Positions 23,902 through 38,944 are shown, numbered from the stretch's first letter. The stretch is 64,000 nt of DNA from Nocardioides marmorisolisilvae (GCF_031656915.1 NZ_CP134227.1:62001-126000), one strand, 5' to 3'. A program made the numbers and translations. The notes: a model not told the origin generated them from the sequence alone.

Positions 23902-23935
23902 GGGGCCGCCGGCCAGTGTGGTGGGCCGGTCTCAG
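23898..23935. terminator. Shared convergent terminator overlapping both stop codons
   Basis: CTGAG / CTCAG enclose an inner CCGGCC / GGCCGG stem with a 9-nt loop. The polA stop and the stop of the convergent flippase gene are both inside the structure. Confidence 0.5.
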
Positions 23936-25191
23936 CGAACGGGCGAGCGCTCCGACGAGCGGAGCCGCAGCAGGCTGAGTGCGAGCAGCGCGACGAACAG
24001 CGTGGCATCGGTGGCGACGACGATCATCAGCAGCTCGTTGAAGCTAGTCGCGGTCCGGCCCACGGCGACAAGGACGACCAGCGCCGCCCAGATGAGCAGC
24101 ACTGAGCGTCGGGCCTGGCGGGCCAGCACGCTGTAGACCAGCAGCTGGAGCAACGAGAGCAAGGTACCCAGGGCCGCGAACACCCACAGCTGGTGCTGGA
24201 TGGCCAGGTACTGGTGGCCGCCGACGAAGATCAGCGCGAGACCTGACAGCGCGGCCGCGCCGCCGGCGGTCAGGACGCCGATCAGCGCCAGCAGCCCCAG
24301 TCCCTTGAGCAGTGTGCCCACCCGAGCTCCCGCGGTGCTCATCGTGGGAAAGGCCATCACGACCACGAACTGGGGGAGGAACAACCCCGCCTTGACGAGG
24401 ATGAGGCCACCGGCGTAGAGGCCGGCCTCGTGAGAGCCCAGGGTGTTGCGGGCGACCAGGAGGTCGACGTTGGACAGCGCGAAGAAGGCCAGCAGGGTCT
24501 GGCCGTTGTGGGCCGTCTCGATCCACAGGGCGCGAGCCCGGTGCTCGCCCGAGCCGGCGTCGGAGCGGTCGGGACGCGACCGTCGCAGCGCGAAATGGCC
24601 GACGACTGTGGGAACGAAGGCCGAGAGCGTCACGCCGAGCATTCCGGAGAGCTCGGTCGGGTGCCACGCGACCGCAGCCACCCCGATGACCAGTCGGCTG
24701 ACTCCCATGGAGAGGTAGACCAGGGAGAGGGAGGTCCAACGGCGCTCGCCCTGCAGTACGCCGGCTTGCGCGCCCATCAGGCTGAGCGGGGCCATGGCGA
24801 CCCCGACGAGCGCCGCGGTGGCCACACTGTGCAGGTGCAGCAGCGCGTTCAGTGCGGGGGACAGGACCAGGCAGAGCACGGCAAGGCCCACCGACGCCTG
24901 CCAGCCGACCCGGAGCACCGTCTTCTCCACCTCGCCGGCATGGTCCAGATTGGCGGAGATCCTTCGGGCGGCCACGGCTTGGAGGGCGAGCTGGAGCACG
25001 CCGAGCACCAGCATCACGTTCATCAGCGACGCGACCGCGCCGTACGCCTGGGGGCCGAGCAACCGGGCCGCGACGATGGTGAAGCCGTAGGTCGAGACGT
25101 TCATGATCCCGACCGCGACCGCGATCACCGCACCGCCACGCAGGGCCTTGTTGGTGGCGTTGGCCGTCGTGCCCGGCGCCTGCTGCTGCAC
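23932..25191 (-). CDS. Polysaccharide flippase-like membrane protein (MOP superfamily)
   Basis: A 419-aa membrane protein with about twelve hydrophobic segments, of the oligosaccharide flippase kind (Wzx/RfbX). The N-terminal segment NKALRGGAVIAVAVGIMN leads into TIVAARLLGPQAYGAVASLM, the family's hallmark. It would move a lipid-linked glycan across the membrane. The GTG at 25191 is chosen since a GAGACT -10-like box ends 7 nt before it and the longer frame adds a Cys/Pro/Arg-rich stretch unlike a membrane protein. It is divergent from the AftD-like gene, 71 bp away, so both probably serve the same envelope polymer. Confidence 0.82.
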   Translation of the reverse strand: MQQQAPGTTANATNKALRGGAVIAVAVGIMNVSTYGFTIVAARLLGPQAYGAVASLMNVMLVLGVLQLALQAVAARRISANLDHAGEVEKTVLRVGWQASVGLAVLCLVLSPALNALLHLHSVATAALVGVAMAPLSLMGAQAGVLQGERRWTSLSLVYLSMGVSRLVIGVAAVAWHPTELSGMLGVTLSAFVPTVVGHFALRRSRPDRSDAGSGEHRARALWIETAHNGQTLLAFFALSNVDLLVARNTLGSHEAGLYAGGLILVKAGLFLPQFVVVMAFPTMSTAGARVGTLLKGLGLLALIGVLTAGGAAALSGLALIFVGGHQYLAIQHQLWVFAALGTLLSLLQLLVYSVLARQARRSVLLIWAALVVLVAVGRTATSFNELLMIVVATDATLFVALLALSLLRLRSSERSPVR

Positions 25192-25198
25192 GCCGGCG

Positions 25199-25204
25199 AG
25201 TCTC
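25199..25204 (-). promoter_or_regulatory. Possible leaderless -10 box of the flippase gene
   Basis: GAGACT ends 7 nt before GTG 25191; it keeps only A2 and T6 of the consensus, so it is a weak match. Confidence 0.35.
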
Positions 25205-25247
25205 CCACACGGGCAAGGGAACGGCCCTTCGGCGCGGTGTCGTTGGG

Positions 25248-25253
25248 TACGGT
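25248..25253 (+). promoter_or_regulatory. -10 box of the AftD-like gene
   Basis: TACGGT ends 9 nt before ATG 25263, so any leader would be only about 2-3 nt long. Confidence 0.45.
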
Positions 25254-25262
25254 GACCCGGAC

Positions 25263-28200
25263 ATGAGCGCACGACAGGTCCGGCCGACCACGGTGGCCTC
25301 CCTTGCCGTGTATGGACTGCTCCTGCTGAGCGCCGTCGCCGAACAGTTCGGCAAGGTCACCAGCGACACGAAGTCGCAGCTGGTGGTGACCCCGTCGCGC
25401 TTCCTCGGGCAGGCCTTCTCGCTCTGGGATCCCACCGAGACGCTCGGCCAGCTCCAGAACCAGGCGTACGGCTATCTGTTCCCGATGGGGCCGTTCTTCC
25501 TCGTCGGCCACCTCGCGCATCTGCCTCCGTGGCTCACCGAGCGCTTCTGGTCCACGCTGCTGCTCGTCCTGGGCTGTGAGGGCGCTCGCCGGCTGGCGGC
25601 CGCCATCGGGCTGTCGGCGTGGCCGGCCTGGGTGGCGGGGATGGCCTACGGGCTCAGCCCCCGGGTGATCAGCGAGGTCGGCGTGCGCAGCGCCGAGATC
25701 CTCCCCGGCGTCGTTCTGCCGTGGGTGCTGCTGCCGATCGTGCTGGTGGTGACGGGCCGGCTGGGACCACGGCGCGGCGCGGTGCTGTCCGTGGCCGCCT
25801 TCCTCTTCTCGGGCGCGGTGAACGGGACCGCCACGGTCGCGCCGCTGCCGCTCGTCGTGCTCGTGATCCTCTGGGCGGTACGGCGGGGCCGGCTGCGTTG
25901 GTCGTTCGTGGCGGCGTGGTCCGGACTGATGGTGCTGGCGAATCTGTGGTGGGTGCTGTCGCTGCTGAAGCTGAACAGCTACTCGCCGCCGTTCTTCGAC
26001 TACGTCGAGGACGCCACGACCACGACGTCGACGAGCGACTTCCTCGAGGCGCTGCGGGGCGCGAGCAACTGGGTGAGCTTCCTCAACGTGGGGTCGGCGC
26101 CGAACTGGCCGGCCGGGTGGGTGGTGAGCTTCTCTCCGGCGTACGTCGTGGCCAGCGGCGTGCTCGCGACCGTGGGGCTGCTCGGCCTGGCGCGCTGGCG
26201 CAGCCCCTGGCGCACTCCGTTGGCGGCCAGTGCGCTCCTCGGGCTCATCTGCCTCACGATCGGGCACGCGTCCGCCCTCGAGTCGCCGCTGGCGCCCTCG
26301 GTCCGCGACCTGCTCGACGGTCCCTTCGCGCTGCTCCGCAACGTTGCGAAGGCCGACCCGCTCTTGCGGCTGCCGCTGGCGATCGGCACGGGCTGCGTGG
26401 TCGTCGCGCTGTTGGGCCACGTGCCCCGGTGGCGGATCCGGTGGTGGCCCGCTGCGGCTGCCGTGGCGGTCGGGGCGCTCGCTGTCGGGATGGCTCAACC
26501 GGCATTGGCGGCGAACCTGCGAACGCCGGGCTGGACGAGGGTCCCGTCGTACTGGTCGCAGGCTGCACACTTCGTGGCCACGGGAGCGCATGGATCGGCG
26601 TCATGGGTGGTCCCGGGCACCGGATTCGGCATCCAGACGTGGGGCTGGACCGACGACGAGCCGATGTCGATCGTCGGGCGATCACCCTGGGTCACCCGCT
26701 CGCAGGTGCCCCTCGCCCCGCCGCAGACCATCCGGATCCTGAGCCAGCTGGAGAACTACCTGGCGACGGGGTCGGGCTCTCCCCAGCTCGGTGGGATCCT
26801 CGCGCGGCTCGGCATCGGCGACATCGTCGTGCGCCACGACCTGGCCCCGGACTCCGGTGACGCGACCTCCGCCAGCCTGGTCTCGATAGCGCTTGCGCGT
26901 TCCGGCGGGCTGACCCGGGTGCGCACCTTCGGACGCCTCGACCTCGGCCCGGCGATCGAGGTCTACCGGGTGGACCGGCCGGTGCCCCCGGCGGGCCTCA
27001 CCGTCCGTTCGGCCGATGCGGCGGTGACCGTGGCCAGCGACAGCGCGGACGTGGTCAATGCGATCGGGGCCGGGCTGATCCCGGTCGGGCGGGCGGCGGT
27101 CGTCCGCGGCGACAGCGGCTGGGTCCGCCCCGTCCAGGTGCTCGGGGACGCCTACCGCGACCGGGAGCGGCAGTTCGGGCGCGTCCAGGAGGCGGAGGGC
27201 CCGATGCTGGCGCGTGGTGAGCCTCGGCACGGGCGGCGGGTGGTCGCGAACTACCCGAGCAACCCGGGAGCGCGCCCGACACTCGTCCAGTACGCCGGCC
27301 TGCGCTACGTCACCGCGTCGAGCTCGCAGGCATGGACGAACAACCTCGGCGCGGTCCTGCCCGAGGACGCGCCGTACTCCGCGGTCGACGGCGACCTGAG
27401 CACGGGCTGGGTCTCGGGCTACTACCACCGCGCGCTGGGCCAGTGGGTCGAGGTCCGCTATCGCGCGCCGCACACGTTCCACCGGGTCACCGTCGCGACC
27501 CCGCAGGGGGACCCGGTCTACGACGACGTCACCCAGGTCACCGTCACCGTCGGGCGCACCTCCCGGCTCGCCCACGTGGATCCCTCCACCGGCATCGCCT
27601 ACGTCGACCTGGACGGAGCGACCGGCGACCGGCTGCGGGTGACCGTGACGGGCGTCGAGCACCCCGCGCAGCGCGGCCCGGTGCGGATCACGGAGATCGC
27701 CGGCCCCGGGCTCCCGGCGCGAAGGACCCTCGTGCTGCCGTCACCGCCGATGGCCCCGGACGTCGACTACCTGTTCACCGCTGCACCGGAGACCCGAGCC
27801 TGCCTCCCGACGCTGCTGGGTCCCGACTGTGACCCCGAGCGGATGAGGGCGAGCGAGGAGAGCGCTGGGATCGACCGGACGTTCCGGGTGCCTTCCCGTG
27901 GTCGGTGGACGGTGGGCGGCACGGTGGTGGCACGCTCGTCGCCAGCGACGGTCGGTCTGCTCGACCCGATCGGTGGTCGGGTCGTGATGCGCGCCAGCTC
28001 GACCTACGCGGACGACCCCACGGTCTCGGCCCGGATGGCCTACGACGGCACGCCCAACACGTCCTGGATCGCCGATGCCCGGGACCCGGCTCCGACGCTG
28101 ACGGTCGACTTCGCCAAGCCCCGCCGGATCGATCGGATCACGGTCAGTGCCCCGGCTGCTCCGGCGATCGCGCCGACGACCGCCGTACTCCGCTCGGGAG

Positions 28201-29258
28201 GTGAGGTCCGGCGGGTCTCCCTGGACGACCTCGGCACCTTCGCGCCGCTACGGGTCAAGCACCTCACGATCAGGTTCGCGAACCCGACCCGCCGGGGCGC
28301 GCCTCTGGGGGTGGGCGACGTGTCGCTCCTGCCCGGACGGGTGGCGGTGCCGCTGCATGGCGACGCGCTCACCGGCGCGGTCTGCGGGTTCGGGCCGGAG
28401 GTCCGCATCGACGGTGCCCGCCACCGTACGGCGGTCCGCGGGCTGATCGGCGACGTGGTGTCCTCGGGTCCGCTCAGCATCGTGCCGTGCGGCGAGCCGC
28501 TGCGGCTGTCCCGCGGCGTGCACCACCTCCGCGTCGTGTCCACCTCCCAGTTCCAGCCGGTCCGGGTGAGCCTGACCCGACACCAGAGGACGAGCACGGT
28601 CGGCGTCAACCGGACCCTGCGCGTCGAGCACCGCTCGGCGTCGGGGCGCGTGGTCCGGGTCGGCCCCGGGGGAGCGGCGCTGCTGTCGCTGACTCAGAAC
28701 TTCAACCGCGGTTGGGTGGCGACCCTGGACGGCCGTCCGCTCACGCCGCAACGGATGGACGGCTGGGCTCAGGGCTGGCGGCTCCCGGCCGGCGCCGGTG
28801 GGACGGTGCGGATCCACTATGCCCCGGAGGCGTCGTACCGCATCGAGCTCGTGGGCGGCCTCGCCCTGGCCGGGGTGGTCCTGCTGCTCGCGCTCGTGCT
28901 GCTGGGGTCCACCCGCCTGACGGCCGGCATGCCGGTCGAGCAGGACGCCGTCCGGCGGCCCGTCGGTCGCCGACGGTACGTGCTCGGGGGCTTGCTGATC
29001 GTGGTCGGCGTGCCGTTGGGCTGGCTGCTCCTCGGTGTGCCCGGTGCGGCGGCTGCGCTCGTCGCCTGGACGTTGAGGCGCTGGCCCGGTGTGGTCACCG
29101 GGTTGGCGGCCCTTGCCGTGGTTGCGGGGACGGTGCTGGCCGGCGCACAGCTTCTCGAGGTCCCACAGCTGCCGGGTGCGGTCTCGGCCGGACTGTGCGG
29201 GCTGGGCGCCTGCGTGCTGCTGGTCGCTGCGTTGCTCCCCGCACGGCGGGCGCAGTGA
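25263..29258 (+). CDS. AftD-like alpha-(1->3)-arabinofuranosyltransferase (DUF3367)
   Basis: A 1331-aa polytopic GT-C glycosyltransferase. The N-terminal half (to about 430) has multiple membrane spans and the first-loop acidic motif TSDTK (Asp35) followed by FSLWDPTETLGQLQNQAYGY, strongly resembling mycobacterial AftD, which adds arabinofuranose to arabinan using decaprenyl-phospho-arabinose. The large exported region (about 430-1200) contains two discoidin/F5-8-type carbohydrate-binding modules (near 690-800 and 910-1000). Two more membrane spans and Ala/Leu-rich helices close the protein. The donor here need not be arabinose, because I see no arabinan-biosynthesis genes in this window. It is coupled by GTGA overlap to the next membrane protein. 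Confidence 0.85.
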   Translation: MSARQVRPTTVASLAVYGLLLLSAVAEQFGKVTSDTKSQLVVTPSRFLGQAFSLWDPTETLGQLQNQAYGYLFPMGPFFLVGHLAHLPPWLTERFWSTLLLVLGCEGARRLAAAIGLSAWPAWVAGMAYGLSPRVISEVGVRSAEILPGVVLPWVLLPIVLVVTGRLGPRRGAVLSVAAFLFSGAVNGTATVAPLPLVVLVILWAVRRGRLRWSFVAAWSGLMVLANLWWVLSLLKLNSYSPPFFDYVEDATTTTSTSDFLEALRGASNWVSFLNVGSAPNWPAGWVVSFSPAYVVASGVLATVGLLGLARWRSPWRTPLAASALLGLICLTIGHASALESPLAPSVRDLLDGPFALLRNVAKADPLLRLPLAIGTGCVVVALLGHVPRWRIRWWPAAAAVAVGALAVGMAQPALAANLRTPGWTRVPSYWSQAAHFVATGAHGSASWVVPGTGFGIQTWGWTDDEPMSIVGRSPWVTRSQVPLAPPQTIRILSQLENYLATGSGSPQLGGILARLGIGDIVVRHDLAPDSGDATSASLVSIALARSGGLTRVRTFGRLDLGPAIEVYRVDRPVPPAGLTVRSADAAVTVASDSADVVNAIGAGLIPVGRAAVVRGDSGWVRPVQVLGDAYRDRERQFGRVQEAEGPMLARGEPRHGRRVVANYPSNPGARPTLVQYAGLRYVTASSSQAWTNNLGAVLPEDAPYSAVDGDLSTGWVSGYYHRALGQWVEVRYRAPHTFHRVTVATPQGDPVYDDVTQVTVTVGRTSRLAHVDPSTGIAYVDLDGATGDRLRVTVTGVEHPAQRGPVRITEIAGPGLPARRTLVLPSPPMAPDVDYLFTAAPETRACLPTLLGPDCDPERMRASEESAGIDRTFRVPSRGRWTVGGTVVARSSPATVGLLDPIGGRVVMRASSTYADDPTVSARMAYDGTPNTSWIADARDPAPTLTVDFAKPRRIDRITVSAPAAPAIAPTTAVLRSGGEVRRVSLDDLGTFAPLRVKHLTIRFANPTRRGAPLGVGDVSLLPGRVAVPLHGDALTGAVCGFGPEVRIDGARHRTAVRGLIGDVVSSGPLSIVPCGEPLRLSRGVHHLRVVSTSQFQPVRVSLTRHQRTSTVGVNRTLRVEHRSASGRVVRVGPGGAALLSLTQNFNRGWVATLDGRPLTPQRMDGWAQGWRLPAGAGGTVRIHYAPEASYRIELVGGLALAGVVLLLALVLLGSTRLTAGMPVEQDAVRRPVGRRRYVLGGLLIVVGVPLGWLLLGVPGAAAALVAWTLRRWPGVVTGLAALAVVAGTVLAGAQLLEVPQLPGAVSAGLCGLGACVLLVAALLPARRAQ

Positions 29259-30988
29259 CGAGGCGCGGTCCAGAGACGGAGCGGCTGGTCGAATGGGGCT
29301 GGTGCGCGCTGCTCGTCGTTGCGGCCCTCGGACCGGCCCTCTGGCGCGCGGGGTACGTGCTGCGCAGCGACATGGTCTTCGTGCCGCATCAGCCCTGGAA
29401 GGGAACCTGGCTCGGGCTCGACGGGACGGTGGGCCGAGCAGTGCCGGCAGACGCGATCGTGTCCGTGCTGACCCACCTGGTGTCCGGCGACGTGGTGCAG
29501 AAGCTCGTCTTGGGCGGCTCCCTGCTGCTGGCGGGTCTCGCGGTCCGCGCCCTGGTGGCGGACTGCTGCCTCGCCGGCCGGCTGGCCGCGACGACCCTCT
29601 ACGTGTGGAACCCCTGGGTGGAGGAGCGGCTCGCCATCGGGCAGTGGGGCACCGTCCTCGGCTACGCGCTGCTGCCATGGGTCGTGGTGGCGGCGCGAGG
29701 ACTGCGCCGGGACCGCCCCGGCCGGGGTGTGCCGCTGCTGGTCCTCGCGTTGGCGGGATGCTCCGCCTGCACGCCGTCTGCGGGGCTCCTTGCAGGCGCG
29801 ACCGCCCTGGCGGTGGTGGTGACAGGCCGGAACGGTCGTGCGACGCGGGCCGGTGTCGTGGTCCTGACCACGCTGGTGGTGAGCCTGCCCTGGGTCCTGC
29901 CCTCCCTGCTCGGCGGCGGCCTGCGGGCGGCGTCGGGTGGGCAGTTCCAGGTGTTCGGCGCCCGTGCCGAGTCCGGTCTCGGCACCGCTGCCAGCGTGTT
30001 CTCGCTCGGCGGGATCTGGAAGGCGGCCGCCGTACCTCCCGAGCGGACCAGCTCGGCGATCGTGCTGCTCTCGCTGGTGGTCACCTGCGTTGCGATCGCT
30101 GGCGCCGCCCGCTGGTGGTCGGTGACCCGCGATCGCACCTGCCTGGGTTTGGCGCTGCTCGCGGCAGTGAGCGTCGTGCTCGCGCTCGCGGCCGCCGTCC
30201 CCGGGGTCGCCGCCGCTCTGGACAGCGCGTCGGTGTCGGTTCCCGCTCTCGGGTTCGTGCGCGACTCGCAGCGGTTCCTCGCCCCGCTGGCGTTGCTGCT
30301 CGCGGTCGGGACGGCCTGGTCGGTCGACTGGCTGTGGCGGCGTGCTCGGGTCGACGGCGCCCGCATCCTGGCTGGTGCGTTGGTGCCGTTGCCGGCGTTG
30401 CTGCTTCCGACGATGGCCTGGGGCCTGCACGGCGACTTCCGTCCGGTGCAGTATCCCGCCGAGTGGGGCACCGTCGCCCGCCAGCTGGCGGACCGCCCGC
30501 AGCCCGATCGGGCCACCGTCGTACTGCCCTGGCACGGCAGCTACCGCGGTTTCGCCTGGAACGGCCACCATGCCGTGCTCGACCCGGCCGACCGGTTCTT
30601 TCCCGGCCCGGTGCTGGTCGACGACCGGCTCTATGTCGGCAGCCACGTGGTCGGGTCGGAGCGTGCCCTGCTCGGGCGGGTCGGTGATGCGCTGGCAGCG
30701 CCGGACCCGGCACGCCGGCTGCGCGCCCTCGGCGTACGACGGATCCTGGTCGAGAAGGGCAACGGACAGCCGGCATCTGCTGTGCCGACGGGGCGCATCG
30801 TGCACGACGGGCCACAGCTGCGCCTCGTCGACCTCGGTACGGCGGCGTCGCTGCCGCGTTCGGGACCACCCACGCTCCCGGTCCTGGCGGTCGATGCCGG
30901 GTGGGCGGTGCTCGTGCCGGCCTGTGCGGCGCTGCTTGTCGCGAGTCGGCGCGGGGTCAGCGTGCGCCAGCGCGCTCGACCACGATGA
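29255..30988 (+). CDS. Large multispanning membrane protein coupled to the AftD-like gene, putative GT-C glycosyltransferase
   Basis: A 577-aa protein beginning at GTG 29255 inside the AftD stop (GTGA overlap). About twelve hydrophobic segments are followed by a soluble exported domain (about 415-545: DRATVVLPWHGSYRGFAWNGHH, VLDPADRFFPGPVLVDDRLYVG) and a final span. The opening segment carries YVLRSDMVFVPHQPW, with an acidic residue in the first exported loop as in GT-C enzymes, and LYVWNPWVEERLAIGQWG, which resembles loops in AftD-like proteins. I do not recognise a named family. Coupling to the AftD-like gene suggests the two act on the same polymer. Its 3' end overlaps the convergent methyltransferase by 32 bp. 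Confidence 0.72.
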   Translation: MTRRGPETERLVEWGWCALLVVAALGPALWRAGYVLRSDMVFVPHQPWKGTWLGLDGTVGRAVPADAIVSVLTHLVSGDVVQKLVLGGSLLLAGLAVRALVADCCLAGRLAATTLYVWNPWVEERLAIGQWGTVLGYALLPWVVVAARGLRRDRPGRGVPLLVLALAGCSACTPSAGLLAGATALAVVVTGRNGRATRAGVVVLTTLVVSLPWVLPSLLGGGLRAASGGQFQVFGARAESGLGTAASVFSLGGIWKAAAVPPERTSSAIVLLSLVVTCVAIAGAARWWSVTRDRTCLGLALLAAVSVVLALAAAVPGVAAALDSASVSVPALGFVRDSQRFLAPLALLLAVGTAWSVDWLWRRARVDGARILAGALVPLPALLLPTMAWGLHGDFRPVQYPAEWGTVARQLADRPQPDRATVVLPWHGSYRGFAWNGHHAVLDPADRFFPGPVLVDDRLYVGSHVVGSERALLGRVGDALAAPDPARRLRALGVRRILVEKGNGQPASAVPTGRIVHDGPQLRLVDLGTAASLPRSGPPTLPVLAVDAGWAVLVPACAALLVASRRGVSVRQRARPR

Positions 30989-31706
30989 ACGCGCGGTCGC
31001 TCGATGGCCGTTGCTGCTGCTCGAGCGGGAACCGGCGGCGAAGGACCCAACGGACGACGAACCGCGTCAGTGCCCGGAGGTCGTGACCGTAGCGCGCGCG
31101 CACCGCGGTGCGGAGCAGCTCGTCACCCTCGGGGTAGCTGCCGGTGAAGTGGACCCGGACCGTGCGCGCCGGGTCGGCCGCCCTTGCCCAGTCGACGACG
31201 TCGGCGGGACGGGGCAGGCCGTGCTCCAGGTGCTCGGCCAGGAAGGGCAGCGTCAAGGAGTGCTCGGCCCGCATCCAGTCCGCGAGATCGCGCTCCGCGG
31301 CGCACTTGCCGGGGGAGCCGCACGGAACGCCGATCACCACGCGCCGTCCTGCCACGCGGACCAGCTCCGCGACGTGCGCGGCCCGCTGGGCCACCGGGAT
31401 GTGCTCGAGCACGTCGCTGCTGGTGACCACGTCATAGGCGTCGTCGGGGTACGGCAACCGGCCGGCCGGCACCACCACGTCGGCGGGTGCCTCGACGTTC
31501 AACGAGGTCACCCGGGCAGCGCCCAGCAGGCTGGCCAGCTCGTGGCCGCGCCCTCCGACGTCGAGCACGCTGCCGTCACTGCCCGCCAGCTCGGCGACGG
31601 TGAGCAGCCGGTCCCACTTGTCCGGCTGCCAGGTCCAGCGCGCCACGAGACGCCCCCGCAATGAGGGCACCGAGGTGGAGTGACGACGGTCGACACAGCG
31701 CGGCAT
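30957..31706 (-). CDS. SAM-dependent methyltransferase
   Basis: Class I methyltransferase fold, 249 aa: motif I VLDVGGRGHELASLLG, motif II region ARVTSLNVEAPAD, and YDVVTSSDVLEHIP (motif IV). The C-terminal third (FTGSYPEGDELLRTAVRARYG) is less typical. Probably modifies a sugar or lipid of the neighbouring envelope glycan; the substrate is not visible from sequence. ATG 31706 is supported by a TAGGCT box ending 6 nt upstream. Its 3' end overlaps the end of the convergent membrane protein gene by 32 bp. Confidence 0.8.
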   Translation of the reverse strand: MPRCVDRRHSTSVPSLRGRLVARWTWQPDKWDRLLTVAELAGSDGSVLDVGGRGHELASLLGAARVTSLNVEAPADVVVPAGRLPYPDDAYDVVTSSDVLEHIPVAQRAAHVAELVRVAGRRVVIGVPCGSPGKCAAERDLADWMRAEHSLTLPFLAEHLEHGLPRPADVVDWARAADPARTVRVHFTGSYPEGDELLRTAVRARYGHDLRALTRFVVRWVLRRRFPLEQQQRPSSDRAFIVVERAGAR

Positions 31707-31712
31707 CGGGCC

Positions 31713-31718
31713 AGCCTA
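31713..31718 (-). promoter_or_regulatory. Leaderless -10 box of the methyltransferase gene
   Basis: TAGGCT ends 6 nt before ATG 31706. Confidence 0.6.
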
Positions 31719-31792
31719 GGAGGGGGTGGGACCTTGGTCCTGAGCTTGCGGCGATTGGTGATGCGCCGGCGCTCAGGTCGTGTAGCCTTCAG

Positions 31793-31816
31793 CCACATTC
31801 CGGGGAGGGAATGTGG
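31793..31816 (+). promoter_or_regulatory. Hairpin in the leader of the DUF2613 gene
   Basis: A perfect 9-bp inverted repeat (CCACATTCC / GGAATGTGG, loop GGGGAG). Its right arm touches the ribosome site GGGAGGGG at 31815-31822, so it could be a translational control hairpin or, as DNA, a regulator site. Confidence 0.4.
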
Positions 31817-31829
31817 GAGGGGAATCACT

Positions 31830-31961
31830 GTGAAGATCGCCATTGCGGCTGCCGTGGGAGCGGTCATTGCCGTTGCTGGTGCGGTCGGTGGAGTCGCTGC
31901 GTACCAAGGGAGCCCGCACGGGGTGTCCCAGACCAGCCTCTACACCTACGCCGACAACTGA
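31830..31961 (+). CDS. Small membrane protein, DUF2613-like
   Basis: A 43-aa protein: one membrane span (residues 3-25, Ala/Val/Gly-rich) and a short exported tail ending QTSLYTYADN. It matches the size and layout of DUF2613, a family of small exported or membrane proteins; in M. tuberculosis one lies beside aftD (Rv0236A next to Rv0236c, from memory), just as here. GTG 31830 follows a GGGAGGGG ribosome site. The role is unknown; association with AftD-like enzymes in different genera suggests a small partner subunit. Confidence 0.78.
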   Translation: MKIAIAAAVGAVIAVAGAVGGVAAYQGSPHGVSQTSLYTYADN

Positions 31962-32030
31962 CGTTTCCAGCTTGATGGCCCCACGCCGTACGGCGTGAGG
32001 TCCGTCTGTGGCTGGGGAGGGCCGTCAGAC

Positions 32031-32804
32031 ATGCAACTGATCATTCCTGCGTACAACGAGGAAGCCAGGCTTCCGGAGACGCTGCGCGCCCTGCGGGCCT
32101 ACGCACTGTCGCCCCGGGTCGTGCCCGGCCGCCCGCTCGAGGTCATCGTCGTGGACAACGCCAGCACCGACGGCACCGCGCTCGTGGCCGCCGCCGCCGA
32201 CTCGCCGGCGATGCGCGTTCGGGTGGTGCACTGTCCGGTGCGCGGCAAGGGTGCAGCGGTCGCTGCGGGGGTGGCGGTGACGACAGCCGACGTCGTCGGC
32301 TTCATGGACGCCGACGGGGCGACCGCCCTGGTTGCCTTCGCCGATGCCGCCGTGCTGCTGGCCCAGGGCGTCGATGTCGCCATCGGCTCCCGAGCGGTCG
32401 CAGGTGCGGTGACCTCCGAGCGGCACAGCCGGGCGCGTGCGTTCGGCGCCCGCGCCTACCGCAGCCTGGCCGGCCGGATCGTTCCCGGTGTCCTGGACAC
32501 CCAGTGCGGGTTCAAGCTCATGGGCGGCGACCTCGCCCGTGTCGTGTTCGCGGACATCGCGACCACCGGCTTCAGCTTCGACGTGGAGGTGCTGGCCCGT
32601 GCGCGCACGCTCGGTGCCCGGATCGCGGAGTTCCCGGTGCACTGGGTCGACGTGCCGGGCTCGACCTTCAGTCCGGTGCGCCACGGGCTGGACAGCTTCT
32701 GCGCCCTCGCCGTCATCGCCTGGCGGGTACGCCGTCCGGTCCGCACGCCGGTGACGCTGCCGGTCCGGACGCCCGCGGCACTCGAGCTGGCGGCGGAGGG
32801 CTGA
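32031..32804 (+). CDS. GT2 glycosyltransferase, dolichyl-phosphate-sugar synthase-like
   Basis: A 257-aa GT-A fold enzyme with LIIPAYNEEARLPETL, VIVVDNASTDGT and the metal-binding MDADGAT (DxD). The order and the DTQCGFKLMGGDLAR motif match polyprenyl-phosphate glucose/mannose synthases, which load a sugar onto a lipid phosphate that membrane GT-C enzymes then use. It would supply the donor for the AftD-like or second membrane glycosyltransferase upstream. ATG 32031 has a GGGGAGGG site a little far upstream; the longer frame adds 12 unsuitable residues. It overlaps the GT4 gene by one base (TGATG). Confidence 0.87.
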   Translation: MQLIIPAYNEEARLPETLRALRAYALSPRVVPGRPLEVIVVDNASTDGTALVAAAADSPAMRVRVVHCPVRGKGAAVAAGVAVTTADVVGFMDADGATALVAFADAAVLLAQGVDVAIGSRAVAGAVTSERHSRARAFGARAYRSLAGRIVPGVLDTQCGFKLMGGDLARVVFADIATTGFSFDVEVLARARTLGARIAEFPVHWVDVPGSTFSPVRHGLDSFCALAVIAWRVRRPVRTPVTLPVRTPAALELAAEG

Positions 32805-33979
32805 TGGACCTCATCGGCAGGCACGTCGTCGTGGCCAACTGGCGCGATCCGGACCACTCGCTCGCAGGCGGCGCCGAGCGCTACGCCTGGGAGTTCGCGT
32901 GTGCTCTGGTTGCCGCCGGTGCCCGGGTGGACTTCCTCACTGCGCGGGAGGCCGGCCAGCGACGCAGCGAGCTGCGCGACGGCATCCGGATCCTCCGCCG
33001 GGGTGGCCGCCTCGGCTTCTACCCGAGCGCCGCGCTGCACCTGCTGCGCCATCGGCGCCGGGTCGACGCAGTCGTCGACGCCGAGGCCGGGATCCCGACG
33101 TTCTCCCCGCTGTTCGTCTCCCGTCGGACCGGCGTCGTGCTGCTGATGCATCACGTACACCAGACCCAGTTCGACACCTACTTCCCCCGTCCCCTGGCCG
33201 TGGTGGGTCGGCTGCTCGAGCGGGTGGCGATGCCACGGGTCTACCGGGGCCGCCCGGTCCTCGCCGTGTCCGAGTCGACCCGGACCGAGATGGCCCGGCA
33301 GCTCGGATGGACCCCCGCGGTCACGGTGCTGCCCAACGGCACCGCCGCCGTCGTACGCCGGGACGTGCCGGCAGAGGACACCGTCGACCGGGTCGTCGTG
33401 CTCGGTCGGCTCGCCACCCACAAGCGCGTCGACCTCGTCGTGCGCGCGGTCGCCGCGCTGGTGCCGCTCCGCCCGGCGCTGCACCTCGACGTGGTCGGGC
33501 GGGGGCCGGAGATGGAGAGCCTGGCGGCCCTCGTCGACACCCTGGACGTCGCGAAGCACGTGACGTTGCACGGGTATCTCGACGAGGCGGACAAGGCCGA
33601 CCTGATGACCCGCGCCCGCCTGCACGTCTGTGCCTCGGATGCCGAGGGGTGGGGGCAGGTGGTCGTCGAGGCCGCGTCGTACGGCGTGCCGACGGTGGCG
33701 CGTGACGTCCCCGGCATGCGGGACTCGGTGCGCGACACGACCACGGGCTGGCTGCTCCGGGAGCCGGCCGACGACCTCGTGGCCGTCCAGGCACGGCTGC
33801 TCGCAGGTATCGAACAGGCCCTCGAGGAGCTCGACGACGAGGAGCGGCGCGAGGAGATCGCGGTCGCGTGCCGCGCATGGGCGGCGCGGTTCAGCTGGGA
33901 AGAGATGCACGACGGCGCTGTTGCCGCCGTGCTGCAGGCACTGGAGAAAGGCGGGACGTCATGTCCTCCATCGCAATGA
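32804..33979 (+). CDS. GT4 family glycosyltransferase
   Basis: A 391-aa GT-B fold enzyme. The C-terminal half shows VVLGRLATHKRVDLVVRAV, LDVVGRGPEMESL, the YLDEADKADLMTRARLHVCAS segment and the nucleotide-sugar motif EGWGQVVVEAASYGVPTVA with its ExxxxxxxE glutamates. The N-terminal half has GGAERYAWEFACAL, typical of acceptor domains. It probably adds a sugar to a lipid-linked intermediate at the inner membrane face. The start ATG shares a base with the stop of the GT2 gene, and the 3' end overlaps the DUF3068 gene by 19 bp, so these three are one transcription unit. Confidence 0.88.
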   Translation: MDLIGRHVVVANWRDPDHSLAGGAERYAWEFACALVAAGARVDFLTAREAGQRRSELRDGIRILRRGGRLGFYPSAALHLLRHRRRVDAVVDAEAGIPTFSPLFVSRRTGVVLLMHHVHQTQFDTYFPRPLAVVGRLLERVAMPRVYRGRPVLAVSESTRTEMARQLGWTPAVTVLPNGTAAVVRRDVPAEDTVDRVVVLGRLATHKRVDLVVRAVAALVPLRPALHLDVVGRGPEMESLAALVDTLDVAKHVTLHGYLDEADKADLMTRARLHVCASDAEGWGQVVVEAASYGVPTVARDVPGMRDSVRDTTTGWLLREPADDLVAVQARLLAGIEQALEELDDEERREEIAVACRAWAARFSWEEMHDGAVAAVLQALEKGGTSCPPSQ

Positions 33980-34971
33980 GTCATTCCGAGGCCGAGGACG
34001 GGCACTCACGCCGCCGCATCACGGCGAGTGCCGGATCCGCAGGTGGGGCCTCGCCGTGGCTGGCCGTGGTCGCCGCCGTCGGCGCCTTCCTCCTGGTCGC
34101 CGGGATGCTGGTCCACTTCTATGCCACCCCCGCATTGGCGGTGGCGCCGAGCGACCAGAGTTCGGTGACCTCCCTGTCCGCGGCGGGTGCGACCGTCTTC
34201 GACACCAACAGCCTCAAGGACGTCACGACCGACCTGTCGATCAAGGCGCGCACCGTCGGCGACGTCGCCGCCTCGCAGAAGGCACCCGGCGACGCCGTGG
34301 TGTGGGTCAGCTCCACCTCGATCCGCGACGGCCAGGGTCAGGTGCTGTCCCGCAGCATGAAGCGTGCCGCGTTCGACGAGCGGACCGGCTCGGCGGTGAA
34401 CTGCTGCGGGAGCTTCATGCAGACCGCGCAGGGCGCGCGCACCTCCGTGGTCCGCCACGGGCTGGTCTTCAAGTTCCCGTTCTTCGCCAAGAAGCAGACC
34501 TATCCGTTCTGGGACGACACCCTGGGCAAGGCCGTCGACGCGAAGTACGTCGGCATCGGCAGCGTCCAGGGGCTCAGCGTCTACCGGTACGTCGCCGACG
34601 TGCCGGCCAGTCAGGTGGGGACCCGGGACGTGCCGCGGTCGGTGCTCGGGCTGCATGGGTCGAGCAACATCGCCGCCGACAGCAACTACCAGAACCACAC
34701 GACGTACTACGTCGAGCCGGTGACGGGCGCGATCATCAACCAGGTCAGCGACACGAAGTCCTGGCTCAGCGCTGCGGGCCACGACCTGGTCACCACCCAG
34801 GCCCACATCGGCTACACGCCCACCCAGGTCACCTCGATGGTCAAGGACATCAAGGGCAAGGCCTCGATGCTGTCGCTCGCCGACGGCGTCGTGCCCTGGC
34901 TGCTCTCCCTGGTGGGACTGGCCATGATGGGTGCCGCGATCCTGCTCGGCCGGCGGCGCCGGGTCGTCTGA
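33961..34971 (+). CDS. DUF3068 family membrane-anchored exported protein
   Basis: A 336-aa protein with an N-terminal span (about residues 28-50), a large exported domain and a C-terminal span followed by the basic tail RRRRVV. The exported region (TDLSIKARTVGDVAASQ, VVWVSSTSIRDGQG, AFDERTGSAVNCCGSFM, FKFPFFAKKQTYPFWDDTL) matches DUF3068, which has no proven role; some databases call it PorA-like. ATG 33961 follows a GGCGGGA site; an ATG at 33976 overlapping the GT4 stop (ATGA) is the alternative and would remove five residues. It is the last gene of the GT2-GT4 unit and may receive or handle their glycan. Confidence 0.82.
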   Translation: MSSIAMSHSEAEDGHSRRRITASAGSAGGASPWLAVVAAVGAFLLVAGMLVHFYATPALAVAPSDQSSVTSLSAAGATVFDTNSLKDVTTDLSIKARTVGDVAASQKAPGDAVVWVSSTSIRDGQGQVLSRSMKRAAFDERTGSAVNCCGSFMQTAQGARTSVVRHGLVFKFPFFAKKQTYPFWDDTLGKAVDAKYVGIGSVQGLSVYRYVADVPASQVGTRDVPRSVLGLHGSSNIAADSNYQNHTTYYVEPVTGAIINQVSDTKSWLSAAGHDLVTTQAHIGYTPTQVTSMVKDIKGKASMLSLADGVVPWLLSLVGLAMMGAAILLGRRRRVV

Positions 34972-34991
34972 GTCCGTACTCCGACCCAGAC
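34966..34991. terminator. Weak hairpin between convergent genes
   Basis: GTCTG / CAGAC with an inner GTC / GAC, one mismatch and an 8-nt loop, directly at the DUF3068 stop codon. Confidence 0.3.
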
Positions 34992-35007
34992 GGCCACGCG
35001 ACCGGCT

Positions 35008-36039
35008 TCAGCCGCCGAGCTGGCCTGCGACGGCCTCGAGCAATTGCTCGAGGCCGTCGTGGTCGTGGTCGCGACCCCTGGCGCGCAACGTCACCACGGT
35101 GCGGTCGGCGACGGTGGCGGCGCCGAGAGACAGCCCGGACCCGCCGCCCGAAACGGGGTAGAACGCGATGTCCTCCACCCCGGGCGCGTGCACCCGCCCC
35201 AGGTGGGAGACCAGCAGCGTGGACCCGAGCCGAGGCGCGGCGAGCCGGGTCGCAGCCCCCACGACGGTCGTCAGCGGGCCGTTGCCGGGAGCGCGTGAGG
35301 GCTGCAGGGGAGCGGTGCGCAGCGCCACTGCCACCTCGTCCCGGGAGAGGCGCTCCACGTCGCGCAACCGGAGGAAGCCGCTGTGGTCGCCCAGGTGGCG
35401 CGCCCCGGAGCCGGTCAGCGTCACGCCCACAGCAACGCTGATCCGCGCGGACCGGCCGCCGCGGTGGGCGTTCCACGCGCGTACGGCGAGTGCGCCCGCC
35501 CGGACCAGGTCTGCAGTGCTCAGCGGCGCGTCCACCGTGCGGCGTGCGAAGACGTCCGGAGACGGTCTCCCCGCTGCTCGGCTGCGTCGCGAGGGAGCCA
35601 CCCGGGCCGAGGGCCGGACCAGCACTTCGGTCAGCCGGTCCACGACTGCCGGCAACAGCGGGGCGTCCCGGTCCGCGGGCGCGATCCCGCGGGCCGCTGA
35701 CGCGGCCGGTGCGCCGATCAGCTCGCCCAGGACCGAGAGCAGGCTCAGTCCGTCGAGCACGCGGTGGTCGCCGCGCAGGACCAGGCCGTCCGCGTGCACC
35801 GCCACGTCCAGCGGCTCCTCCGGCGCAAGCCGTGCCGACAGGGAGGCGAGCAGTGCCGGGGCCTCACCGGCGGCCACGGCGTCGAGCGCTGGCTCGGGCC
35901 ACCGCTCGCGTCGTGCCAGGGCCTGGAGCCGTCGCCGGACGGATCCGGACTCAGGAGGTGTCGTCGTACGAGCGTCGAGCAGCACGTTCCAGGGGATCCG
36001 CGGATCGCCCAGGCCGTGGCGCGGCGGAGCGCCGGTCAC
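35008..36039 (-). CDS. Condensation/wax-ester-synthase-type acyltransferase-like protein
   Basis: A 343-aa protein of the CoA-dependent acyltransferase superfamily. The active-site motif HxxxDG appears as HRVLDG at residues 92-97 and a second conserved segment, VSHLGRVHAPG, lies about 45 residues before the end, near the place where condensation and PapA/WES enzymes carry their solvent-channel motif. At 343 aa it is shorter than typical condensation domains (about 430). DHRVLDG also matches the 2-oxoacid-dehydrogenase E2 signature, but in E2 that lies at the C-terminus and no lipoyl domain is present. The GTG start overlaps the methyltransferase stop (GTGA), so the two are coupled. Probable role: acylation of an envelope glycan or lipid, inferred from context. 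Confidence 0.68.
   Translation of the reverse strand: MTGAPPRHGLGDPRIPWNVLLDARTTTPPESGSVRRRLQALARRERWPEPALDAVAAGEAPALLASLSARLAPEEPLDVAVHADGLVLRGDHRVLDGLSLLSVLGELIGAPAASAARGIAPADRDAPLLPAVVDRLTEVLVRPSARVAPSRRSRAAGRPSPDVFARRTVDAPLSTADLVRAGALAVRAWNAHRGGRSARISVAVGVTLTGSGARHLGDHSGFLRLRDVERLSRDEVAVALRTAPLQPSRAPGNGPLTTVVGAATRLAAPRLGSTLLVSHLGRVHAPGVEDIAFYPVSGGGSGLSLGAATVADRTVVTLRARGRDHDHDGLEQLLEAVAGQLGG
35028..35059. repeat. 32-bp perfect palindrome inside the acyltransferase gene
   Basis: Arms CGACGGCCTCGAGCAA and TTGCTCGAGGCCGTCG with no spacer. It lies in the last codons of the minus-strand gene (GLEQLLEAVA) and just beyond the end of the convergent DUF3068 gene, so it may act as that gene's terminator. 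Confidence 0.8.
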
Positions 36040-36740
36040 GATGTCGGCCGGGTCGCGTGCAGAACGAGACTCATGCCCCGGCGTCGTCGCAGTGGCAGGT
36101 GCGCCTCGACCGCGAGGACGGCACGCAGCACCATGTTGAGCAGCGCGTTGACCGGCTGCATCTCGCTCTCGGAGGTGCGCCGGCGCCGACGGCGGACCCT
36201 CGCGATCGGCCGCAGCAGCACGTTCCAGCCGAAGACGTCCTCCACCTGCAGCCCGGAGCCTTGGACGAGCTCGACCAGGCTGCGTCGCTCGTAGCGCCGG
36301 AAGTGCGCGAGCGCGACGTCGTGCCCGCTCCACAGGTCGGTGCCCGCAGGGACGGCCAGGAGGAGGTGGCCACCGGGGCGGAGCACCCGTCGCGTCTCGG
36401 CGGCCACGATGTCGTCCCGGTCGACGTGCTCCCAGGCGTCCGTCGAGAGCACCAGGTCGAAGCTGGCGTCGGCGAAGGGAAGCGCGCGGGCGTCGCCGCG
36501 GACCACGGGCAGGCCGCGCCCGTGGGCGACCTCGGCCGACGCGGGGGAGTGGTCCAGACCCGTCACCTGCCAGCCGAGGTCCCGCAGCACCTCGGTGTTC
36601 CCGCCCGACCCGCACCCGACGTCGAGCGCGCGGCCGATCCGGAGCGGGGCGAGCTCGCGACGGACCATCGTCCGGCGCGCGGCATACCACCAGTGTCGCC
36701 GCTCGAGCGCGGCCGACTTGCGGATCTCGGCCTCGTCCAT
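36036..36740 (-). CDS. SAM-dependent methyltransferase
   Basis: A 234-aa class I methyltransferase: motif I ALDVGCGSGGNTEVL, motif II WQVTGLDHS, and FDLVLSTDAWEHVDRDD followed by RRVLRPGGHLLLAVPA. An N-terminal ALERRHWWYAARR motif, common in sugar or quinone methyltransferases of polysaccharide clusters, precedes it. The tail has a run of arginines (RRRRRR around residue 186) and then AVLAVEAHLPLRRRRGMSLVL, which may lie on the membrane. First gene of a pair with the acyltransferase, coupled by GTGA overlap; ATG 36740 has a purine-rich site upstream. Confidence 0.83.
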   Translation of the reverse strand: MDEAEIRKSAALERRHWWYAARRTMVRRELAPLRIGRALDVGCGSGGNTEVLRDLGWQVTGLDHSPASAEVAHGRGLPVVRGDARALPFADASFDLVLSTDAWEHVDRDDIVAAETRRVLRPGGHLLLAVPAGTDLWSGHDVALAHFRRYERRSLVELVQGSGLQVEDVFGWNVLLRPIARVRRRRRRTSESEMQPVNALLNMVLRAVLAVEAHLPLRRRRGMSLVLHATRPTS

Positions 36741-36810
36741 CCCTGTCCCTCCCGCGGCGGTGTCGGCTCCCCGAGGGTGGTCGCCGGAGCCCTGTTGCCC
36801 GGGCGGGAGC

Positions 36811-37611
36811 CTAGCCGAGGTCGGCGACGAAGATCGCGGTGCCGGGGGTGAGCAGGCCGCGGGTGCGCGACCACCCGCCCCAGGTCCGGTCGTGGTCCTC
36901 GGGCCACTCGGGCTCGACGATCTCGCGGAGGCGGAAGCCGGCCGTCGAGAGAGCGTGCACCCAGTCGCCGATGGTGCGGTGATGCTCGACGTACCGGGTC
37001 TCGCCGGTCAGGTCGTCGACCTCGACGTACGGCGTCCGGTCCCAGTAGGACTGTGAGGCGATCAGGCCGCCCTCGCCGGGGTCGTCGGGGAACATCCACC
37101 GGGTGGGGTGGGTGACCGAGAACGAGAACCGTCCACCGGGTCGGAGCACGCGCGCGATCCCGTGCACCAGCGCGTGGGCGTCGGCGATGAACTGCAGCGC
37201 GCCGAAGGCCGAGAACACGATGTCGAACGAGCCGTCGCGGAACGGCAGGTCGGCAGCTCCCGCGCAGAGCAGCGGAACCCGGGTGCCCTGCTCATCGTCG
37301 ATCCGGACGCTGTGCTGCAGTTGGCGCATGGACACGTCGGTGCCGACCGGCCGGCCGCCGTGCTCGAGCACCCATCGGGAGCACTGAGCGGCCCCGCAGC
37401 CCAACTCCAGCACGTCACGTCCGGCGACGTCGCCCAGCGCCCCGACGACGTCCTCGGTGACGCCCTCGGGCCCCCAGAGGAAGCCCGCGTCGCCGAGGAA
37501 CGCGCCGTGCGTGGCCTGGTACTCGTCGGCGTAGGCGTCCCAGTCGGCGCGGTTGGCCCGCAGCGAGTCACGCTCGTCGACGGCGCGACGGTCCGGGTGC
37601 ACCTGGTTCAT
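36811..37611 (-). CDS. SAM-dependent methyltransferase
   Basis: A 266-aa class I methyltransferase: motif I VLELGCGAAQCSRWVLEHGG, RPVGTDVSMRQL, and FDIVFSAFGALQFIAD followed by RVLRPGGRFSFSVTHPTRWMFPDDP. The segments DRTPYVEVDDLTGETRYVEHHRTIGDW and FRLREIVEPEWPEDH are typical of a widespread actinobacterial group of unknown substrate. ATG 37611 is supported by TACGGT ending 6 nt upstream. The insertion sequence begins 26 bp beyond that -10 box. It is separated from the previous methyltransferase by 70 bp and has its own promoter. Confidence 0.87.
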   Translation of the reverse strand: MNQVHPDRRAVDERDSLRANRADWDAYADEYQATHGAFLGDAGFLWGPEGVTEDVVGALGDVAGRDVLELGCGAAQCSRWVLEHGGRPVGTDVSMRQLQHSVRIDDEQGTRVPLLCAGAADLPFRDGSFDIVFSAFGALQFIADAHALVHGIARVLRPGGRFSFSVTHPTRWMFPDDPGEGGLIASQSYWDRTPYVEVDDLTGETRYVEHHRTIGDWVHALSTAGFRLREIVEPEWPEDHDRTWGGWSRTRGLLTPGTAIFVADLG

Positions 37612-37711: not shown

Positions 37712-38905
37712 TCAGGCTGCGGGGCGGGTGCCTCGGGTGCGGGCGGCGGCGAGGTCGATGAGTTGGTTTTGGATCTTGTTGATCGCTCTGGTGACCTTGG
37801 CCGGGTTCAGTGCGGCGTGCTCGGTCTCGAGCCTGCTTCGGATCTTTTCGTCGAGGACGCCGGCGTCGAGCAGCCGCTGGTAAGGGGTGCGTGGCGGGTC
37901 GTAGATGCGCTTCTTGCGGCCCGCTTTCGTGGTTGTCCACCCGGTCGCCTTGACGCAGGGCAGCAGGTGGTTCTTGCGGGCCATGACGAGGGCCCACAGG
38001 TCGTTGAGTAGCGCCAGTTCGGCTTCGGTCTCGTAGCGGTAGCGGAAGGCGTGCTTGCGGACCCAGTCGCCGTTGCGCTGCTCGACGTGGGCGTTGTCGT
38101 TGTGCTGGTAGGGACGGGCGCGGGTGACAGGGATGTCGTGGTCGTCGCACCAGGCGATCACGCCCCAGTTGATGAACTCGCTGCCGTTGTCGAAGTCCAC
38201 CCCGGCCACTGGCACTGGTGCTTGCGCGGTGATCCACTCCAGGGCGCCGTGGACGTGCAGGAACGCGTTGTTGCGGATGCTGCGCAGCATCGTCCACCCG
38301 GTGAGCGGGTCCGTCGCGGTCAAGGTGCGCAGGAACTCGCCCTTGAGGGTGTGCCCGCAGTGCGCGACGGTGTCCAGCTCCAAGAACCCAGGCACCGTGA
38401 TCGGCTCGTCCATGCTTGTGCGCGTCGGGATCGAGGAGCGCAGGATGTGGGAGGGCTTGGTGCCCGAGAGCGCGCTCGGGTAGGCGGCGTCCTTGTGGGG
38501 CTTGAGGTAGCGGTCGATCGTCGCTGCGGACATCGAGCGCAGCTCGTCGAGTACTTCGGGTCTGACGCGCGGAGCGACCTTACCGAGCTCACCGAACCGG
38601 ACCAGGCGTTCGAGGGTGTCGTCCATGACCGCGGCCAGGTACTTGCCCGACGGCTGGCCCGATAGCCGCCAGACCTCCTGGAGCACGATCAGGGCGTCAT
38701 AGGAGTACTTCTTCGGCCGTGGTCTGCGCTGGACATCACGGGCTGCGCCCTTGCGCGCTGCTGCCACACGGATCGCACGCCGGGCGTGATCGCGGGTCCA
38801 CCCGGTCGTCTCGACCAGCGCATCGAGCATCGCGCCCTTCTCGGCCCTGTTCGCACGGGCGTACTCACGAGCGAACTTCTTGGTGATCTCATGCCGCGTC
38901 GCCAT
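37712..38905 (-). CDS. DDE transposase (integrase-core type)
   Basis: A 397-aa transposase. The N-terminal third is helical and basic (HEITKKFAREYARANRAEKG, TTGWTRDHARRAI), which suggests a helix-turn-helix that binds the terminal repeats. The rve-type catalytic core has Asp178 (LELDTVAHCG), Asp239 (GVDFDNGSEF) and Glu275 (NAHVEQRNGD); 35 residues separate the last two, as in IS3/IS481-like enzymes. All three are intact, so the element may be active. ATG 38905 follows GGGAG; a GTG 18 bp upstream is the alternative. I cannot assign the IS family. Confidence 0.87.
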   Translation of the reverse strand: MATRHEITKKFAREYARANRAEKGAMLDALVETTGWTRDHARRAIRVAAARKGAARDVQRRPRPKKYSYDALIVLQEVWRLSGQPSGKYLAAVMDDTLERLVRFGELGKVAPRVRPEVLDELRSMSAATIDRYLKPHKDAAYPSALSGTKPSHILRSSIPTRTSMDEPITVPGFLELDTVAHCGHTLKGEFLRTLTATDPLTGWTMLRSIRNNAFLHVHGALEWITAQAPVPVAGVDFDNGSEFINWGVIAWCDDHDIPVTRARPYQHNDNAHVEQRNGDWVRKHAFRYRYETEAELALLNDLWALVMARKNHLLPCVKATGWTTTKAGRKKRIYDPPRTPYQRLLDAGVLDEKIRSRLETEHAALNPAKVTRAINKIQNQLIDLAAARTRGTRPAA

Positions 38906-38944
38906 CGACAACTCCCTGTTCACCAGGCCAGGGAACCGCTCGCG

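Follow-up and report, generated by a model that had tools for sequence, protein, structure and literature searches.

MmpA is a homologue of AftD in the Nocardioidaceae form of an actinobacterial envelope locus, found in a genome where neither a mycolate nor an arabinan pathway was detected

In mycobacteria the homologues of MmpA and PgfA are essential or important and are currently read as acting in trehalose mycolate transport, and AftD (Rv0236c) lies near their locus. This cell-wall locus is conserved in mycobacteria and corynebacteria and encodes TmaT, LmcA/PgfA, MmpA, MtrP and the products of further uncharacterized genes (PMC8698533). Two further papers also treat it as a locus of the cell wall (PMC9678360, PMC8972800). 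MmpL3 and a trehalose monomycolate analogue are both interaction partners of PgfA (PMC9678360), whose corynebacterial counterpart is required for full-length lipomannan and lipoarabinomannan (LM/LAM; PMC8972800); in Corynebacterium glutamicum, NCgl2760 acts in LM/LAM formation and the co-located TmaT, MmpA and MtrP act on trehalose lipids (PMC8698533). Here we analyze a 64,000-nucleotide stretch of DNA from the soil actinobacterium Nocardioides marmorisolisilvae, hereafter the window (positions 62001-126000 of C1 in genome G000, a single contig of 4,228,226 bases), in which a set of envelope genes lies between polA and rpsA. This cluster represents the described actinobacterial tmaT-mmpA-pgfA(lmcA)-aftD envelope locus in its Nocardioidaceae form and not a new kind, and its MmpA is homologous to AftD. 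A preliminary description made from the sequence of the window proposed an envelope module, which is supported, and the module is conserved; it is not an unknown assembly, since the locus has been described and MmpA and PgfA have studied homologues, which that description did not recognize.

The Corynebacterineae tmaT/mmpA/lmcA(pgfA) locus with aftD (Rv0224c-Rv0236A; NCgl2759-2765) shares with the window MmpA, PgfA/LmcA, a family 4 glycosyltransferase (GT4), a methyltransferase and AftD. In four loci of the mycobacterial family (L034, L035, L052 and L053) AftD, a TmaT-like protein of the AT3 type (Acyl_transf_3), PgfA and MmpA lie within 20 kb; a GT4 and a methyltransferase are also found within L035 and L052, and the flippase of the window locus recurs in two members, L035 and L053, where it stands beside MmpA. 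The window locus differs from that of the Corynebacterineae in having a condensation-fold acyltransferase instead of an AT3-type TmaT, in its additional family 2 glycosyltransferase (GT2) and methyltransferases, in its site between polA and rpsA, and in its genome, where targeted searches, on which all genome-wide absences given here rest, detected neither a mycolate nor an arabinan pathway. No AT3-type TmaT was found among the window genes, the rest of the genome not having been searched for one.

The membrane protein encoded immediately after AftD, with a 4-base overlap between its start and the AftD stop, scores 381.5 bits against NCBIfam NF053599 (cut-off 210) and is therefore placed in the same equivalog as MmpA NCgl2761/Rv0226c; unlike these, it is encoded in a genome where mycolate synthesis was not detected. 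The preliminary description had noted a second membrane protein coupled to AftD, as the overlap bears out, without recognizing MmpA. In the paper that named MmpA, no recognizable catalytic domain and no homology to known proteins were reported (PMC8698533). HHalign comparison of 20 MmpA with 24 AftD sequences, however, gave a probability of 99.5% and an E value of 1.8e-22 over 471 columns, whereas the controls, MmpA against Emb (E 0.35) and against the flippase (E 0.62), were negative, and the MmpA profile also matches the AftD genes of two genomes, G013 and G028. For the AlphaFold model of MmpA (predicted local distance difference test score, pLDDT, 88.5; predicted template modelling score, pTM, 0.89) the best match in the PDB is AftD (Foldseek E 1.1e-7; VIA-align Z 27.2, root-mean-square deviation 4.4, 496 residues), followed by oligosaccharyltransferases (OST/PglB), AftA and ArnT. 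In enzymes of the GT-CA type the first juxtamembrane helix, which lies between helices 1 and 2, bears an essential Asp at its tip (PMC12041299); Asp39 of MmpA, directly after the first transmembrane helix in the first loop, is invariant in 20 of 20 sequences, and the HHalign alignment to AftD has a gap there. MmpA is a protein of predicted GT-C fold homologous to AftD, which is new; a shared fold is no proof of glycosyltransferase activity. With neither Pks13 nor mycolate synthesis detected in the genome, MmpA is unlikely to deliver trehalose lipids here in the literal sense.

Four markers of the arabinan and mycolate pathways were sought in the window genome. Emb (PF04602), present in all six genomes of family f4, gave no match, and neither did decaprenyl-phosphate phosphoribosyltransferase (DPPR synthase; UbiA, Rv3806c type), for which the positive controls were found. 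The best score with DprE1 was 40 bits over 137 query residues, as against 710 bits in a second mycobacterial-family genome, and full-length Pks13, recovered in G038 and G214, was represented only by a 27% identical ketosynthase match. Other candidates were rejected: the FAD_binding_4 matches that were read (10 of 11) are by eye of the glycolate-oxidase, D-lactate-dehydrogenase, sugar-lactone-oxidase, DHCR24-like and berberine-bridge types, in agreement with the direct DprE1 search, and a third UbiA match was ruled out as DPPR synthase by direct search. The earlier suspicion that this is no arabinan or mycolate system thus holds for this genome, in which the DprE1 and UbiA-type DPPR synthase genes singled out for checking were not found; in the family, however, several relatives carry ubiA, dprE1 and dprE2 inside the locus. 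DprE1 and DPPR synthase were likewise not found in G198, G082, G133, G013 and G028, five other AftD/PgfA/MmpA bearers of three families. Both were found in mycobacteria and in deeper branches, and also in G104, G123 and G153, AftD bearers of family f3 with large genomes (8-10 Mb). In these three AftD lies beside PgfA and GT4 and MmpA is missing; a further member of their genus, G023, carries PgfA and neither AftD nor DprE1.

The AftD of the window matches the full-length GT-C_AftD domain (PF11847; 588 bits, cut-off 26, residues 21-659) and, as the preliminary description had it, carries two carbohydrate-binding modules, with two F5/8C and two CBM_AftD stretches in profile searches. It aligns to the solved mycobacterial AftD (6w98) at 425 bits and about 32% identity and shares with it the full GT-C domain, the loop Asp and the carbohydrate-binding modules; unlike the mycobacterial enzyme, it has no DPPR synthase or DprE1 in its genome to provide decaprenyl-phospho-arabinose. 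Its closest relatives in the named collection, at 45-55% identity, belong to Nocardioides and other Nocardioidaceae. Asp35, the GT-C catalytic Asp of the first periplasmic loop, is kept in at least 95% of 46 sequences, and because this residue is retained the window AftD is probably an active enzyme. Several Nocardioidaceae (G272, G279, G325, G339, G346, G369 and locus L083) have a very divergent AftD-family gene within ~10 kb of one or two others.

Every gene that the preliminary description had named is present between polA and rpsA, at the following window coordinates.

21235-23901, plus strand: polA, left border of the set (profile search)
23932-25272, minus strand: flippase-like membrane protein of MOP/Wzx type (PF01943 match of an orthologue; neighbour position)
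25263-29258, plus strand: AftD-family GT-C glycosyltransferase with two F5/8C carbohydrate-binding modules (PF11847, PDB 6w98)
29255-30988, plus strand: MmpA-family membrane protein (NF053599, HHalign, AlphaFold)
30957-31706, minus strand: S-adenosylmethionine (SAM)-dependent methyltransferase 1 (MT1), a variable accessory gene (PF13489)
31830-31961, plus strand: 43-residue membrane peptide, tentatively DUF2613-like, sequence MKIAIAAAVGAVIAVAGAVGGVAAYQGSPHGVSQTSLYTYADN
32031-32804, plus strand: GT2, probably of polyprenyl-phosphate-sugar synthase type (PF00535, DTQCGFK motif)
32804-33979, plus strand: GT4 glycosyltransferase (PF00534)
33961-34971, plus strand: PgfA/LmcA (DUF3068, PorA) periplasmic lipid-carrier-like protein (PF11271, NF053601)
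35008-36039, minus strand: acyltransferase of predicted condensation fold (HxxxD; AlphaFold model and motif)
36036-36740, minus strand: SAM methyltransferase 2 (MT2), tentatively MtrP-like by position (PF08241)
36811-37611, minus strand: SAM methyltransferase 3 (MT3), conserved beside rpsA (PF08241)
37712-38923, minus strand: rve integrase-core gene, insertion-sequence-like, between the methyltransferases and rpsA
39214-40683, plus strand: rpsA, right border of the set (profile search)

The distribution of the locus was followed in a phylum sample of 216 genomes and a Nocardioidaceae sample of 159, with gene order read in 47 loci and then in 20 more. In the phylum sample AftD occurs in 31 genomes, and PgfA, MmpA and Emb score above cut-off in 18, 13 and 6, respectively. 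AftD, PgfA and MmpA are found together in 12 genomes, six of which, the window genome among them, are without Emb, and the three proteins co-occur (Fisher p 1e-10 to 1e-14, not corrected for phylogeny). Within the Nocardioidaceae AftD was found in 102 of 159 genomes, the other 57 giving no match, and the locus takes three layouts (A, B and C), mostly between polA and rpsA. Layout A, that of the window, consists of flippase, AftD, MmpA, small peptide, GT2, GT4 and PgfA, with the acyltransferase and methyltransferases on the opposite strand; it is present in 23 distinct genomes, whose AftD proteins are mostly 37-55% identical. Many of these loci have an extra GT-C-like match between AftD and MmpA, and their variable parts are MT1, the acyltransferase and the small peptide, but in the loci compared the core neighbours do not show the independent variation that had been named as a possible objection to a module. 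No TmaT was found in layout-A loci by tblastn with a type-B AT3 query.

Layout B comprises flippase, MmpA, GT4, methyltransferase, AftD, an AT3 TmaT-like acyltransferase, another GT-C-like protein and PgfA, with ubiA-dprE1-dprE2 inside the locus in five members and ubiA alone in two. Type-B loci such as L066, L067 and L072 share with the window polA, flippase, MmpA, GT4, methyltransferase and AftD, and most also share PgfA and rpsA; unlike the window, these three have ubiA-dprE1-dprE2 and the AT3 TmaT-like acyltransferase and no DTQCGFK GT2. Layout C resembles A, but its acyltransferase is beside AftD, it has no GT2, and ubiA is present in some members. In layouts B and C a further GT-C-like protein of ~610 residues adjoins either PgfA or AftD (L026:7338-9164, L027:12307-14184 and orthologues); it has no Pfam match, and its HHalign match to AftD is weak (probability 84%, E 8e-6). 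In the AftD tree the layout-A sequences form one clade (100/100), sister to layout C, with the exception of L025, whose placement is to be ignored because its record is broken by frame shifts: in this locus (Nocardioides sp. TF02-7) polA, AftD, GT2 and GT4 are each split into several frames, probably by sequencing errors.

The GT2 is the mark of layout A, and its DTQCGFK motif is present in every layout-A locus. This motif is known from ALG5-type polyprenyl-phosphate-sugar synthases, and together with the PF00535 match (86.6 bits) and weak matches to dolichyl-phosphate hexose transferase models and to the dolichyl-phosphate mannose (DPM) synthase 5mlz (E 7e-7) it makes the window GT2 a probable polyprenyl-phosphate-sugar synthase, ALG5/DPM-like by motif. 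The GT4 (PF00534, 98.9 bits) is 34-36% identical to the GT4 adjoining mycobacterial MmpA, and PgfA is well above both of its cut-offs (PF11271, 212.6 bits, cut-off 29.5; NF053601, 236.5 bits, cut-off 160). The flippase of the window has no direct Pfam or NCBIfam match, and its earlier assignment is supported through a 53% identical orthologue in L019 that matches PF01943 Polysacc_synt (37.2 bits, cut-off 28.2); it is adjacent in nearly all layout-A loci, and its true start is probably GTG 25191, because the longest open reading frame would extend 10 bases past the start of the divergent AftD. The acyltransferase has no Pfam or NCBIfam match. Its AlphaFold model (pLDDT 81.9) has a condensation fold, aligning best with 8s6l (VIA-align Z 29.4), with many nonribosomal peptide synthetase condensation domains, and with wax ester synthase (19.4) and PapA5 (16.6), and the His and AspGly of its HxxxDG motif are invariant among 10 homologues; as modelled, it is a condensation-type (HxxxD) member, as had been proposed.

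Pfam matches likewise agree with the earlier naming of GT2, GT4, DUF3068 and three methyltransferases. MT1 (PF13489) has a close homologue in one of seven relatives compared (L024), MT2 (PF08241, 87.8 bits) has a homologue adjoining GT4 in L052, and copies 57-80% identical to MT3 (PF08241, 65.7 bits) adjoin rpsA, including in L027 and L036 of other families. The 43-residue peptide exists as described and its position is kept in many relatives; its DUF2613 label is tentative, because it does not match PF11021 and its best orthologue reaches 18 bits, below the cut-off of 22.1. The rve gene, probably an insertion sequence, was inserted in the window's lineage, because the gap between MT3 and rpsA in L019 is only ~250 bases. 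A DUF554 membrane protein gene (19740-20495, minus strand) is kept near polA in several layout-A relatives.

The arabinan donor pathway is patchily distributed among AftD bearers. DPPR synthase occurs in 31 of 159 Nocardioidaceae, 30 of which have AftD (Fisher p 5e-6), and it was unmatched in 22 of the 23 layout-A genomes, whose GT2 always has the DTQCGFK motif; in the remaining one, G238, a distant match lies far from the locus. In a comparison of frequencies it is present in 1 of 18 layout-A genomes and in 29 of 84 AftD bearers without this layout (p 0.02, with no correction for phylogeny). On the AftD tree at least six changes of donor status are needed, below all 500 label shuffles, and repeated loss of the arabinan donor with AftD retained would be the simplest reading. 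A search for AftD residues that switch with donor status yielded just A178, F245 and W448 as marks of layout A, none of them an obvious active-site change. Outside the Mycobacteriaceae, dprE1 and dprE2 adjoin AftD genes in L043, L066, L067 and L071-L073, with ubiA too in five Nocardioidaceae loci, which suggests that arabinan donor synthesis is wider than the mycolate formers; we found no paper in the open-access literature linking Nocardioides with DprE1, arabinan and AftD.

Because the genome is without genes for the arabinose building block and for mycolic acids, the cluster probably does something else here. We lean, on sequence evidence, towards its assembling and exporting a surface glycolipid or lipoglycan that would be neither arabinogalactan nor trehalose mycolate and would be made without the usual arabinan donor. 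GT4 would build on a lipid acceptor in the cytoplasm and GT2 would load polyprenyl phosphate with a sugar, feeding AftD and MmpA; the flippase would turn lipid-linked intermediates outward, AftD and the AftD-related MmpA would add sugars at the outer face, PgfA would shuttle the lipid-borne product, and the condensation-fold acyltransferase and the methyltransferases would decorate it. Each enzymatic step, their order, the donor sugar and the product are what we infer; gene content, synteny, the homology and predicted fold of MmpA and the undetected Emb, DprE1, DPPR synthase and Pks13 are computed results. The "complete route" to an undescribed polymer of the preliminary description is kept here as a working hypothesis. 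A bolder version, rather unlikely, is that MmpA proteins, including that of M. tuberculosis, are active AftD-type GT-C glycosyltransferases and not transporters, and that AftD and MmpA are here re-supplied by GT2 for an undescribed PgfA-carried surface glycolipid. Several points weigh against the function we propose. The GT2 is assigned by its motif and weak profile matches. Many other AftD-bearing Nocardioidaceae are without both DPPR synthase and DTQCGFK GT2, because of which the GT2 fails in some cases as the replacement donor and its universal role is only partly supported. Layout-A AftD retains DT[KR]...QNQAYGY, a motif of arabinan-making lineages, and this speaks against a donor site of a radically different kind.

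The same unchanged active-site motif speaks for an AftD that still transfers D-arabinofuranose from a donor pathway non-homologous to UbiA/DprE1, the locus then making an arabinan-bearing, LAM-like lipoglycan, and this unlikely alternative, which also counts against our proposal, gains from the relatives with ubiA-dprE1-dprE2 in the same locus and from the need for the PgfA homologue LmcA in LM/LAM formation in C. glutamicum (PMC8698533, PMC8972800); the window genome, however, has no Emb, DprE1 or DPPR synthase orthologue, and those of its FAD_binding_4 and UbiA proteins that were read resemble other enzymes. Rather improbable, too, is that separate envelope pathways share one site, MmpA/PgfA serving one lipid and AftD/GT2/GT4 another glycan. 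Such a division has its precedent in C. glutamicum, in the co-located NCgl2760 (LM/LAM) and TmaT, MmpA and MtrP (trehalose lipids) (PMC8698533), but AftD and MmpA are homologous, overlap by 4 bases and co-occur across families. That AftD and its neighbours are left over from an ancestral locus for arabinan and mycolate and no longer have a coherent function would fit a family in which DPPR synthase and linked dprE genes are patchy while AftD persists; yet in 23 diverged genomes the frames are open and both the catalytic residues and the gene order are kept, which argues for selection, and AftD can be lost, since 57 of the 159 family members have no match, and we regard a relic as very unlikely.

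What makes the locus of interest is that AftD, MmpA and PgfA are uncoupled here from both arabinan and mycolate, together with the GT-C identity of MmpA. The homology to AftD allows a specific enzymatic role to be proposed for MmpA, which previously lacked any such hypothesis, and the automatic names "arabinofuranosyltransferase" and "trehalose lipid delivery protein" mislead in genomes of this kind. That MmpA, PgfA and AftD occur in lineages where neither mycolate nor arabinan synthesis is detectable suggests that these proteins have an older, more general job.

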